Below are positions 4,943 to 39,476 of a stretch of 45,233 nt of DNA, piece by piece (the stretch's first letter is position 1; every line of letters begins with the position of its first letter). The stretch is from assembly GCA_021325595.1 (NCBI GenBank), contig JAJPGX010000004.1:1-45233 (forward strand). Direction: 5' to 3'. The notes below the pieces were generated by a model. The model saw only the letters and a program-made list of their open reading frames with translations. It was not told the origin of the DNA and did not search any database. This stretch comes from Nitrososphaerota archaeon. Lineage in GTDB: Archaea; Thermoproteota; Nitrososphaeria; Nitrososphaerales; Nitrosopumilaceae. The position numbers and the translations under genes are program-made.

Positions 4943-5584
4943 CTACTCGTATGTTGATTGTGACGATACGCCGGAGGGTGATGGAACTGATGGGAATCTG
5001 TCGCCAATTTGTTGTTCTGCAACTGCTGATGCTTCTTGTAGAATCTTCTCGGTTTCTTCGTTTGACGAGGAGGTATCCACGCTGAAGTCTCCGCCTGCAA
5101 GTGAGTCCATCATCAAGCCGTTGAGTGTTTGAGTCATCGCATTGATTTCGGAATCTGCTTCTGGCATAAATCTTCCAAGAGATGACTTTAGTCCCTTCAT
5201 TGTGGACATTGCTGGTGCTATTGCAACCATTGCATCTCCGAGGTCGTGGATTGTAGTCAAGCGTAGTTGTACTTGCTCCAATGCCATTCTTGCATTTCCT
5301 AGCATCTTTGTGACTTTTCTTATCTCTGCTAGCTCGTTTGACAGAACGCGGCTTGTGGCTGCATCATGCTGCTGCATTGCGGCCACGATTCTTTTGAAAA
5401 GCTGTTCGTCTCTTTGTCTCAGCTTTCCCAACATTGAATCCATCTTCGATATTTGACCCTGTAACTTGTTCACAGCTACCTCTATCCTAGGTTTTAGAGC
5501 TCCCTGTGGTTTTACAGTTTCACGGATCTTTTCGGTTATGCCTACAGACTCTGGTCGAGTCCAAGACTTATCGAAGCCGGTCAT
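4943..5584 (-). CDS. ESCRT-III-like CdvB paralog A
   Basis: This is an archaeal ESCRT-III (Snf7-like) protein that polymerises on membranes in cell division and related remodelling. The core is highly helical and charged (KPQGALKPRIEVAVNKLQ, then RQRDEQLFKRIV, ELAEIRKVTKML, IHDLGD). A linker leads to a short C-terminal helix (NEETEKILQEASAVAEQQ) and a Ser-rich tail. There is no C-terminal winged helix like that of Sulfolobus CdvB, so it belongs to the shorter paralogs. A second paralog at 37244-37876 is about 60% identical by eye over the core. The upstream region carries a sequence element shared with that paralog. No cdvA or cdvC is in the window. Confidence 0.92.
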   Translation of the reverse strand: MTGFDKSWTRPESVGITEKIRETVKPQGALKPRIEVAVNKLQGQISKMDSMLGKLRQRDEQLFKRIVAAMQQHDAATSRVLSNELAEIRKVTKMLGNARMALEQVQLRLTTIHDLGDAMVAIAPAMSTMKGLKSSLGRFMPEADSEINAMTQTLNGLMMDSLAGGDFSVDTSSSNEETEKILQEASAVAEQQIGDRFPSVPSPSGVSSQSTYE

Positions 5585-5642
5585 GCGGGGTAGTTTACGA
5601 GTTGATTCTTAATTGCCGGTGTATATTATAGTCAACACTAGG

Positions 5643-5660
5643 CTAAATTTAGCTCACAAA
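5643..5660 (-). promoter_or_regulatory. Shared cdvB upstream element, copy A
   Basis: CTAAATTTAGCTCACAAA (plus strand) contains the perfect 10-bp palindrome CTAAATTTAG. There are 58 nt between its palindromic end and the cdvB paralog A start codon. The same element, with one base different, sits at exactly the same distance before the cdvB paralog at 37244-37876. A TATA-like CTATAATATA follows closer to the gene. It is probably a transcription-factor site upstream of the core promoter. Confidence 0.6.
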
Positions 5661-35982: not shown

Positions 35983-37242
35983 ATGCAACTTCAATCTAAG
36001 AGATGGACTTGGTACCTAATACCAGGCCAAATAACAGTTCAAGGATTAAGTACCGTAATTCCACTATATGTCATATTTCTTGGTGGTGACATAGCAGAAG
36101 TAGCAATTATTCTGGCTATTCAAAATGCAGCAGTAGCAATAGGATCTATTTTTTGGGGAAAAGTGATTGATAGATATCATGTAAGAAGACCAATACTTTT
36201 GATTTCATTCTTTGTTGTTTTGCTTTGTAGTGTTGGTATGTATTTTACCAATTCCATATACGTCCTTTTTGGAATAGCTCCCATACTTGGATTTTTTACT
36301 GTTGCCCGAAATCCAGTGACACAACTGTTGGTAATGGAATCTGTTCAAAAGAACTTGTGGAGGTGGCTGTTTGCACGAACTTCAATCATGAGCACTATTG
36401 GTATGCTAGCATCGATGGTGATAGGAACTGTGGGAAGTATCTATTTTGATTTGCGTCCATATTTTTTGATATGTGCTGCATCTAGTGGATGTGCAATGAT
36501 ATTGGCAACCTCAGTTAAGGGTGGAGGGTTTCATGTAGAGCGTAGCAGCATAGCTCACTCGTTACATGGTTTACACTATGCCATCAGCCATTATCATTTT
36601 GTTTTTCCTAGGATTCCTGAACGTCATGATTTCAAGCACATAATTACAATTTTCAAAGGAAAGATAACTAATGAAATTGGCATATTCTACATAGCAAGTT
36701 TCTTTTTCTATTTTGGAAGTAACATGTATTTTACTGCATGGACTCCATTTTTGAAAACACATGGGTTTTCAGATTCAGGTGTTTTTCTTAATTATATGAT
36801 TCAGACAGCTATGATGCTTGCAATATTTTTTGTAGCTCCAAAGGTAATATCAAAATTGGGAGAAGAAAAGGCAACTGTTTTGGCACACATTCCAAGGATA
36901 CTAGCAGTAGTATTGCCAGGAGTTGCTGCAATAGCAATGATTGGAACTTCGGGATTTGTATTGGCAATTGTTTCTGCCTGTCTTATGGTAATAGCATTTT
37001 CAATTTATAGCACATCTAGTTCTGTAATATTTTTCAAAAGCATTCCTCAGGGGTTTGAGGGTAAATATCTTGGAGTAAATAGTGCCATTACTGGAATAGG
37101 AGTTTTCTTTGGCTCACTTGTTACGGGAGAAATAACACAGAGTTTTGGATATCCTGTATTGTTTTTGTCATCTGCAGTTGTCCTGATTGGATCCTTGGTA
37201 TTGTTCCTCACATATTTCCGCTATAGACTATCAATAATATAG
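35983..37242 (+). CDS. MFS transporter
   Basis: Twelve hydrophobic segments span 419 aa, with the MFS loop motif GKVIDRYHVRRPILL between helices 2 and 3 (a 'GxxxDRxxRR' form) and a longer central cytoplasmic stretch (~185-230). The N-terminus IPGQITVQGLSTVIPLYVIFLGGD is typical of helix 1. Substrate and direction cannot be inferred. It ends 1 nt before the convergent CdvB paralog B gene. Confidence 0.88.
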   Translation: MQLQSKRWTWYLIPGQITVQGLSTVIPLYVIFLGGDIAEVAIILAIQNAAVAIGSIFWGKVIDRYHVRRPILLISFFVVLLCSVGMYFTNSIYVLFGIAPILGFFTVARNPVTQLLVMESVQKNLWRWLFARTSIMSTIGMLASMVIGTVGSIYFDLRPYFLICAASSGCAMILATSVKGGGFHVERSSIAHSLHGLHYAISHYHFVFPRIPERHDFKHIITIFKGKITNEIGIFYIASFFFYFGSNMYFTAWTPFLKTHGFSDSGVFLNYMIQTAMMLAIFFVAPKVISKLGEEKATVLAHIPRILAVVLPGVAAIAMIGTSGFVLAIVSACLMVIAFSIYSTSSSVIFFKSIPQGFEGKYLGVNSAITGIGVFFGSLVTGEITQSFGYPVLFLSSAVVLIGSLVLFLTYFRYRLSII

Positions 37243-37243
37243 T

Positions 37244-37876
37244 CTAGATGTAGCGGGCTGAAGAGGATTGGCCAGCAGGCATAGATGGCAGCTTGTCGTT
37301 GACAGCTGCTTCTGCGACTGCTGCTGCTTCTTGTAGGATTTTCTCGGATTCTTCGTTGGTCGAAGAGTCGATTCCAAAGTCGCCGCTGTGGAATGTGTCA
37401 GTCATCAGTCCACCGAGCATCTCAGTCATTCCAGATAGTTCACGGTCTGCTTCTGGCATGAACTTGATAAGGGATGATCTTAGGTTCTTCATCAAGCCGA
37501 TTGTTGGCATGATTGTAACCACGGTGTCTCCCAAGTCGTGGAAGGTGCTTAGTCTTAGCTCGATTTGTTCAAGTGCGATTCTGGCGTTAGATAATAGTTT
37601 TGTAACCTTTCTAACTTCAGCTAATTCTTTTGATAATACTTTACTTGTAGTAAGATCATGTTGCTGTGTAGCAGTCACGATTCTTTTGAATAATTTTTCA
37701 TCTCTTTGTTTTAATTTTGTAATCATTCCATCTAGTTTGCCAATCTGGGTCTGTAGCCTTTTGATGGCTGATTCCATTCTTGGTTTTAGAGGGCCTTTTG
37801 GTCTTATTGCGTCGTTGAATCTTTCACCAATAGTTGGTGTTTGTGGTCTTTGCCAGTTATTAGCAAATGTTGTCAT
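37244..37876 (-). CDS. ESCRT-III-like CdvB paralog B
   Basis: The sequence is collinear with the CdvB protein at 4943-5584: RPKGPLKPRMESAIKRLQTQ, KQRDEKLFKRIVTATQQHD, KELAEVRKVTKLLSNAR, FHDLGD, FMPEADREL and the C-terminal NEESEKILQEAAAVAEAA. It also lacks a C-terminal winged helix. Differences cluster in the last helix and tail, the region that usually decides partner binding (Vps4/CdvC or CdvA). Two such paralogs suggest subfunctions in division or membrane remodelling. Its upstream region carries the shared 18-nt element at the same distance. Confidence 0.92.
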   Translation of the reverse strand: MTTFANNWQRPQTPTIGERFNDAIRPKGPLKPRMESAIKRLQTQIGKLDGMITKLKQRDEKLFKRIVTATQQHDLTTSKVLSKELAEVRKVTKLLSNARIALEQIELRLSTFHDLGDTVVTIMPTIGLMKNLRSSLIKFMPEADRELSGMTEMLGGLMTDTFHSGDFGIDSSTNEESEKILQEAAAVAEAAVNDKLPSMPAGQSSSARYI

Positions 37877-37934
37877 GGATACGACTAAAAAAATACATTA
37901 TTAATTTCAGGTGTGAAATGTGGTTCACTGTATA

Positions 37935-37952
37935 CTAAATTTAGCTAACAAA
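37935..37952 (-). promoter_or_regulatory. Shared cdvB upstream element, copy B
   Basis: CTAAATTTAGCTAACAAA (plus strand) differs from the copy at 5643-5660 by one base. There are 58 nt from its palindromic end to the start codon, identical to copy A. The bases between also keep partial similarity (ACACC-G-AATTAA-AAT). It is probably a transcription-factor site for co-regulation of the two ESCRT-III genes. Confidence 0.6.
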
Positions 37953-38062
37953 CTCAGCCTTGAACCTATAGTTTCAACTAGCAAGCACATAATTAAAAAA
38001 TCACAATTTTGTGGATAACCTAAATTGGATATATCCTACACTGGATTCCCCACACAAAGCGT

Positions 38063-38173
38063 CTATTGCGCTACCTGCATCGCAACAGTTCTTTGCGGAT
38101 GGATCTTCTTTATGTGAATTGCCAACGCGTTGTTTGACGGTTGGAGTTCACAGCAAAGTGGACATTTTTCCAT
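38063..38173 (-). CDS. C2H2 zinc-finger microprotein (36 aa)
   Basis: The ATG is at 38173-38171 and the TAG at 38065-38063. The product contains a canonical C2H2 finger: Cys4-x2-Cys7-x12-His20-x4-His25 (CPLC ... HIKKIH), with Leu three residues before the first His as in classical fingers. A TTTAAATA box starts about 39 nt upstream of the ATG, leaving a short leader of about 12 nt. The segment is GC-richer than its surroundings. A plus-strand ORF (38011-38202) over the same bases has no family character and is taken as the shadow. It is probably a DNA- or RNA-binding protein; the target is unknown. It is upstream of cdvB paralog B on the same strand. Confidence 0.65.
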   Translation of the reverse strand: MEKCPLCCELQPSNNALAIHIKKIHPQRTVAMQVAQ

Positions 38174-38199
38174 TTTATTTGATGCCTGTCATCCAGAAC

Positions 38200-38531
38200 T
38201 AATGTATTTAAATTTTTGGTTGGTAAAATAAATTAAAACATTTTTTGGGAAAAAAATCAAAATTTGTTTTTGTGAGTTGGTAAAAATAAATAAAGAAAAA
38301 ATTTTGAAAAATTTTAGTGATGAGAGAGACAAGAATATTGAAAAAAATTATTTCAGTTTTTTTTGTATTTTAAAAAATAATTTTTATTTTTGAAAATTTC
38401 ATAGCTGCAATATTAGGTGCTACTAATTCTATTAATTATTATTTTTAGTGATAAAAATTATAAATATTATAAATTATATTAATATAATTTCAAAATAATA
38501 GAAAAAGACTAATAGTTAAACCTTTTTATTC
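38200..38531. other. Very AT-rich spacer upstream of tfb
   Basis: About 330 nt with long A and T runs. No ORF or RNA was seen. It carries the promoter of the zinc-finger gene at its left end and the tfb promoter (CCTTTTTATT at about 38521-38530) at its right end. The rest may be a flexible or bent regulatory region. Confidence 0.5.
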
Positions 38532-38561
38532 ATGTTAACCGAAATTCTTATAAGATATTAT

Positions 38562-39476
38562 ATGACGCGCGAATCTTTCGGTTCTGGTGGACGTTGTCCT
38601 CGTTGTGGAAAAGGACCCATGGTTACTGACAGTACTACAGGCGAAATGTTTTGTGGTGGCTGTGGATTTGTTCTCACAGAACGTGTAGAAGAGTCTGGTC
38701 CAGAATGGAGATCTTTTTCCAAAGAAGAACATGAGGATCGAAGTAGAACAGGAACTCCAACTTCACTTGCAATGCACGATATGGGACTTGCAACAATAAT
38801 TGGTCCTGCAGACAAGGATGCATCAGGAAAACCACTTTCTGCATCAATGAAAAGTACTATTGAGCGACTCAGAACTTGGGACAGCAGAAGCCAAGTACAT
38901 GAGCCAGTAGATAGAAACTTTAGACAAGCATTTAGTGAATTAGATAGACTAAAGGACAAACTTGCTTTATCGGATGCAGTAATTGAAAAGACTGCATACA
39001 TCTATCGAAAAGCATTAGACAAAGGTCTTGTCAGAGGAAGATCAATCCCAGGACTTGTTGCGGCAGCACTTTATGCAGCATGTAGAGATACAGAAACTCC
39101 GAGAACTCTAACTGATGTAGCAAATGGCATCAACATCAAACGCAAAGATGTTGCCAGGTGCTATAGGTTATTGCTAAGAGAATTGGATCTTAAGATGCCG
39201 GTTGTTGATCCAATAAAATGTGTTGCAAGAATTGCAAGCAAAGCTGGTTTGAGTGAAAAGACAAAAAGAAAAGCTCTGCAAATTCTAAAAGATGCAGCTG
39301 AAATTGAAATTTCAGCTGGAAAAGATCCCATGGGACTTGCAGCTGCTGCACTGTACCTTTCATGTGTTATGAATGGAGAAAATAAAACACAGAAAGATGT
39401 GGCACAGGCTGCCGGAGTAACCGAAGTAACAATCAGAAATAGATACAAGGGATTAAAAGAGTCCCTTAAGCTCTAA
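38562..39476 (+). CDS. tfb: Transcription initiation factor TFB
   Basis: This archaeal TFIIB homolog bridges TBP/TATA and RNA polymerase. It has an N-terminal zinc ribbon (CPRCGKGPMVTD, then CGGCGFV), the B-reader/linker region with ESGPEWRSFSKEEHEDRSRTG, and two cyclin repeats (about residues 100-195 and 200-304; RGRSIPGLVAAALYAACRD, KDPMGLAAAALYLSCV). The start was set at ATG 38562 (MTRESFGSGG), because the TATA-like TTTTTATT near 38522-38529 puts the transcript start near 38550; the ATG at 38532 lies too close to it. Thaumarchaeota often have several TFBs, so this may be one of a set. Confidence 0.95.
   Translation: MTRESFGSGGRCPRCGKGPMVTDSTTGEMFCGGCGFVLTERVEESGPEWRSFSKEEHEDRSRTGTPTSLAMHDMGLATIIGPADKDASGKPLSASMKSTIERLRTWDSRSQVHEPVDRNFRQAFSELDRLKDKLALSDAVIEKTAYIYRKALDKGLVRGRSIPGLVAAALYAACRDTETPRTLTDVANGINIKRKDVARCYRLLLRELDLKMPVVDPIKCVARIASKAGLSEKTKRKALQILKDAAEIEISAGKDPMGLAAAALYLSCVMNGENKTQKDVAQAAGVTEVTIRNRYKGLKESLKL

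Follow-up and report, generated by a model that had tools for sequence, protein, structure and literature searches.

Results

A short zinc-finger ORF upstream of cdvB

The stretch of DNA analysed here (the window, 45,233 nt) carries on its minus strand an ORF bounded by an ATG start and a TAG stop, whose product is MEKCPLCCELQPSNNALAIHIKKIHPQRTVAMQVAQ. The ORF lies next to a gene for a CdvB-like ESCRT-III protein and a divergent tfb gene, and several conserved intergenic elements accompany these genes (Table 1).

Table 1 Features of the finger locus (positions in the window)
Feature	Position	Strand	Evidence or remark
Single C2H2 zinc-finger microprotein gene, 36 aa	38063..38173	-	ORF, orthologs, dN/dS, codon-position test, predicted fold
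CdvB-like ESCRT-III (Snf7) gene, Nmar_0029/Nmar_0061-type paralog	37244..37876	-	Pfam PF03357, E 3.3e-6
TFB (TFIIB-like) gene, divergent neighbor	38559..39476	+	Pfam PF00382 and PF08271
TATA box TTTAAATA	38205..38212	-	39 nt 5' of the finger ATG
Conserved cdvB promoter element, dyad and BRE/TATA-like AATTAATAA	37901..37929	-	Alignment; between the finger gene and cdvB
GCTAAATTTAGC-like palindrome, 1 mismatch	37934..37945	.	Upstream of the cdvB promoter
Block GTAGGATATATCCAATTTAGGTTATCCA / TAGGATATATCCAATTTAGGTTATCC, then T-rich tract	38012..38039	-	Directly after the finger stop; alignment

Re-reading the sequence gave exactly the 36-residue product that the original prediction had described, with the ligand spacing C4-x2-C7-x12-H20-x4-H25, which falls within the classical C2H2 pattern (C-x2,4-C-x12-H-x3,5-H). 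The residue three before the first His (H20), said to be hydrophobic, is L17 in the window copy and Leu, Ile, Val, or Met in all 71 orthologs compared. The finger had also been called canonical, and this holds for the ligand spacing and the hydrophobic residue before H20 but not for the position four after the second Cys, which is hydrophobic in canonical C2H2 fingers and is Gln11 in the window copy. Gln at this position is shared by the window genus and close relatives, and most other genera have Leu, Val, Ile, or Met; the window genus also has an extra Cys8, where other genera mostly have Gly8. The best Pfam score of the window copy was 13.1 bits (E 0.1), which is below the gathering cut-off of 27. 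One finger of 23 residues can hardly attain such cut-offs, and we regard the shortfall as a detection limit, the score being no defining biochemical property of a C2H2 finger. The Pfam model zf-C2H2_4 was weakly matched by 20 of 26 members of the finger family (best E-value 6e-5), and a search of NCBIfam with the ORF returned no match.

Distribution of the gene and selection on its product

A tBLASTn search with the 36 residues detected orthologs at E-values of 1e-9 to 1e-18 in 31 other genomes of the same genus, so that the single-sequence search placed the gene in 32 of 37 same-genus genomes, the window's own included. Among the high-quality genomes of the genus, 18 of 19 have an ortholog; in the single exception (G033), the contig carrying cdvB begins 191 bases ahead of the cdvB match, at the point that corresponds to the last codon and stop of the finger. 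Within the family Nitrosopumilaceae, whose named relatives include Nitrosotalea, Nitrosotenuis, Nitrosarchaeum, and Nitrosopumilus, the single-sequence search matched 93 of 250 genomes, from 14 of the 22 genera, and a profile search gave strong matches in 15 of the 22 genera. Outside the family, the best matches fetched (G368, G372, and the f3 and f11 genomes) were other C2H2 ORFs, none of them beside cdvB.

The orthologs (72 distinct sequences) are 31-36 residues long, and two have 11 instead of 12 residues between Cys and His. The original prediction was to fall if no homolog kept the Cys and His residues; all four ligands (two Cys, two His) are kept in every ortholog found, in a list that was partly gathered with a C2H2 pattern, and profile hits examined without that pattern also keep them. 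The median dN/dS was 0.168 over 548 pairs, indicating purifying selection. Third codon positions were far more variable (entropy 0.67) than first (0.28) or second positions (0.22), and a contrast as large was obtained in 0 of 100,000 permutations. On these comparative grounds, the 36-residue C2H2 ORF is a real, conserved protein-coding gene.

Other origins for the conserved signal were rejected. Two of the antisense frames over the finger contain stops in 32-33 of 34 orthologs and the third in 17 of 34, which argues against a conserved antisense ORF. Rfam gave no match over positions 37200-38800 at E-values up to 1, speaking against a structured RNA, and none of the 35 pattern matches in viral contigs was related to the family of this finger (the HPQ finger family), speaking against a viral origin.

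Residue conservation and predicted structure

In 71 distinct ungapped orthologs, M1, C4, P5, C7, H20, K23, H25, and Q27 are invariant, E9 and P26 are nearly so, and R28 is present in 55. Classical fingers read DNA bases through helix positions -1, +2, +3, and +6, which correspond to residues 13, 15, 16, and 19 of this protein. These residues vary among the 71 orthologs and are mostly small or uncharged; conserved base-reading positions were not found. AlphaFold2 predicted a beta-beta-alpha fold with a mean pLDDT of 84, consisting of a beta hairpin followed by a helix at residues 14-24, with residues 1-25 mostly above 90. Using Foldseek, the model superposed on solved classical C2H2 fingers in the PDB at 0.5-1 A, with E-values that are not significant, as expected for about 25 residues. 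A C2H2 fold and zinc binding are thus predictions.

Genomic context and gene loss

The position between an ESCRT-III gene and tfb was correctly described, but only cdvB proved to be a conserved partner. A cdvB paralog is the next same-strand gene downstream of the finger in 73 of 75 testable loci, with 71-206 nt between the finger stop and cdvB, whereas tfb is found divergent upstream in 56 of 72 and is missing from that side in the remaining 16. The fixed neighbor of the finger is cdvB, not tfb. The two cdvB paralogs of the window (4943-5584 and 37244-37876) are 58% identical; the assignment of the CdvB paralogs to the Nmar_0029/Nmar_0061 type is based on the identity pattern and on matching map positions of two paralogs about 25 kb apart, not on a tree. 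In N. maritimus, Nmar_0029 and Nmar_0061 share about 50% identity, and each shares about 30% with the polymer-forming Nmar_0816 (PMC3684127).

The finger gene had been credited with its own TATA box at a plausible distance, and this box was recovered. A TATA-like 8-mer is present 31-40 nt 5' of the ATG in 72 of 72 distinct orthologs. This distance suits leaderless or very short-leader transcripts and implies that the finger mRNA would be of that kind.

A cdvB gene of the Nmar_0029/0061 group was present in all 58 genomes of the genus Nitrosopumilus that were searched, and strong finger matches in only four. The finger gene has been lost in most Nitrosopumilus, which makes it dispensable in some settings. 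Clear remnants were detected upstream of cdvB in two of 28 finger-less Nitrosopumilus cdvB loci examined: a 28-nt fragment identical to the finger gene at 26 positions (L175) and a nearly full-length finger gene with a stop and indels (L189). Their scores were reached by 0 of 200 shuffles, and these decayed copies show lineage-specific loss. The two exceptions to the cdvB linkage come from genus g22 (L058 and L063), with genomes of about 0.8 Mb, where the finger is found at another locus and the sole cdvB of the group is the other paralog (71-72% versus 54-56% identity). The finger outlived its usual cdvB neighbor in these reduced genomes. Because it is kept there without a linked cdvB copy, it would not be simply a cdvB leader.

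Conserved elements between the finger gene and cdvB

The promoter element TGTKRACYAYAWTWYACACCNNNAATTAA, with a preceding GCTAAATTTAGC-like palindrome, stands before both cdvB paralogs of the window, at 5609-5653(-) and 37901-37945(-). A pattern built from these two cdvB sites found only the same two places genome-wide at up to 3 mismatches, that is, no third site, and the reversed control found none. The element is conserved across the family. Since it persists in genomes without the finger and precedes the second paralog of the window, which has no finger neighbor, it belongs to cdvB and not to the finger. The finger as reader of this element was rejected, as the element stays where the finger has been lost. 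Together with the palindrome, the element may serve these archaea as an operator of their division genes. The block that follows the finger stop holds two similar inverted repeats and possibly represents a 3' end/terminator region or an operator. Its conservation is limited to the window genus and two close genera, and other genera largely lack it.

Discussion

Possible function of the finger protein

We tentatively favor, at slightly less than even confidence, a trans-acting one-finger C2H2 adaptor or modulator. A stand-alone gene, transcribed independently, would encode a trans-acting one-finger protein, 31-36 residues long, with a beta-beta-alpha fold around a single zinc ion. The end of the helix and the HPQ segment would dock onto a single conserved partner, either a protein or an RNA, and the protein would serve as an adaptor or modulator rather than read DNA sequence. 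We infer docking from the free variation of the almost uncharged residues 13, 15, 16, and 19, set beside the near-invariance of P5, E9, and K23-I-H25-P26-Q27-(R28), and action in trans would follow from retention of the finger in the two 0.8-Mb genomes with only the other cdvB paralog. Against this adaptor reading, the C-terminal end of the finger is basic, and a single C2H2 finger can bind DNA when flanked by basic residues. The linkage with cdvB suggests that the protein takes part in CdvB-based division or TFB-dependent transcription, or shares their timing; however, gene linkage is no proof of functional linkage. That the finger is a regulator or cofactor dedicated to ESCRT-III (CdvB) division, with a K-x-H-P-Q face that would bind CdvB, TFB, or RNA polymerase and so tune division, is on the whole unlikely.

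The predicted C2H2 fold would also suit a small DNA-binding regulator of the neighboring cdvB (or tfb) promoter, since the cdvB promoter next to the finger is strongly conserved and contains palindromic blocks, and since AFV1p06, a single finger of 59 residues, binds dsDNA (PMC3541406). We consider such a regulator a rather doubtful candidate, however, because the cdvB promoter element is still conserved in finger-less genomes and also stands before the second cdvB paralog, where there is no finger, the base-reading positions are unconserved, and the finger is retained in genomes that lack the linked cdvB. Another kind of role, as a small zinc protein associated with the ribosome or RNA, is brought to mind by the short, basic, and strongly conserved sequence and by the small C2H2 proteins modeled in two structures that, to judge from their chain names, are probably archaeal ribosomes (6skg, chain Bo, 47 aa; 9qf4, chain Bk, 64 aa). 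The similarity to both chains is only generic for C2H2 (E 0.17-0.62 for 6skg_Bo), though, and the finger has its fixed place beside cdvB and tfb rather than among ribosomal genes. The family also includes many genera without the finger, and the Nitrosopumilus losses include pseudogenes, a pattern unusual for a ribosomal protein. We consider this role improbable.

The placement directly 5' of cdvB, on the same strand and 71-206 nt away, could instead point to a cis-acting leader or uORF that controls cdvB expression, with the peptide secondary. This is very improbable, given that a separate, conserved promoter-like element for cdvB lies downstream of the finger ORF, that selection acts on the amino-acid sequence of the peptide and its zinc ligands are invariant, and that the finger survives without linked cdvB in reduced genomes. 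As for a reading frame arisen by chance in AT-rich intergenic DNA, the ORF is short (36 codons) and one among 45 listed ORFs of at least 25 aa, but the orthologs, the dN/dS of 0.17, and the codon-position signal (0 of 100,000 permutations), together with conservation over 15 genera and the fixed promoter box, rule this out for practical purposes.

Significance and comparison with known small zinc proteins

The finger protein sits at the lower size limit of free-standing C2H2 fingers, and the case shows that ORFs below the usual length cut-offs can be validated by comparative genomics. The near-fixed place before cdvB offers a concrete lead on the organization of archaeal division genes, for which aCcr1 of Saccharolobus was the sole named CdvA-controlling factor found in the literature consulted (PMC7617429). 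The finger adds a strongly conserved family of 31-36 residues to the ammonia-oxidizing archaea (AOA), where relatives of the AFV1p06 type were not found: the 2013 study of AFV1p06 detected no thaumarchaeal homolog (PMC3541406).

The window genome contains about ten further small C2H2 ORFs with one or two fingers (L249-L256; contigs C46, C34, C45, C7, C31, and C18), and its small zinc-finger repertoire seems little described. Another short C2H2 family (L205, L206, L207, L208, L212, L213, L215, L217, and L218) has the motif CPYCxSxFxxxExLSKHIDxIH and often ends in GSGLLEGDTxKW; it spans several families of the class and has no cdvB linkage. Given these ORFs and the other short families in the class, single-finger proteins are not rare in this group.

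AFV1p06 (PDB 2LVH) and the crenarchaeal viral C2H2 family share with the finger an archaeal setting, a very small size, and a single zinc-dependent C2H2-type beta-beta-alpha unit, which for the finger is predicted. AFV1p06 differs in its 59 residues, terminal extensions, and Glu as fourth ligand, whereas the HPQ finger has both His and almost no extensions. The former is of viral or proviral origin; the latter is chromosomal and kept at one locus, and the viral contigs searched held no relative. The other one- and two-finger C2H2 ORFs of AOA (e.g., ...CPYCGSxFxxxExLSKHIDRIHxGSGLLEGD...) have the same motif type and similar sizes (33-111 aa) and occur in the same genomes, but their flanking conserved residues and loci are different and they have no cdvB neighbor; in searches, the HPQ family formed a separate high-scoring set (E below 1e-10 versus 1e-7 or weaker). 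Chains 6skg_Bo and 9qf4_Bk are small single C2H2 proteins like the finger, with different length and context. The zinc micro-proteins of Haloferax are likewise archaeal and below 70 aa but are described as defined by two C(P)XCG motifs (PMC11241148, PMC6562870, PMC10716476), whereas the finger is of the C2H2 type. The HPQ finger is a new family of an already known kind, the small C2H2 proteins.
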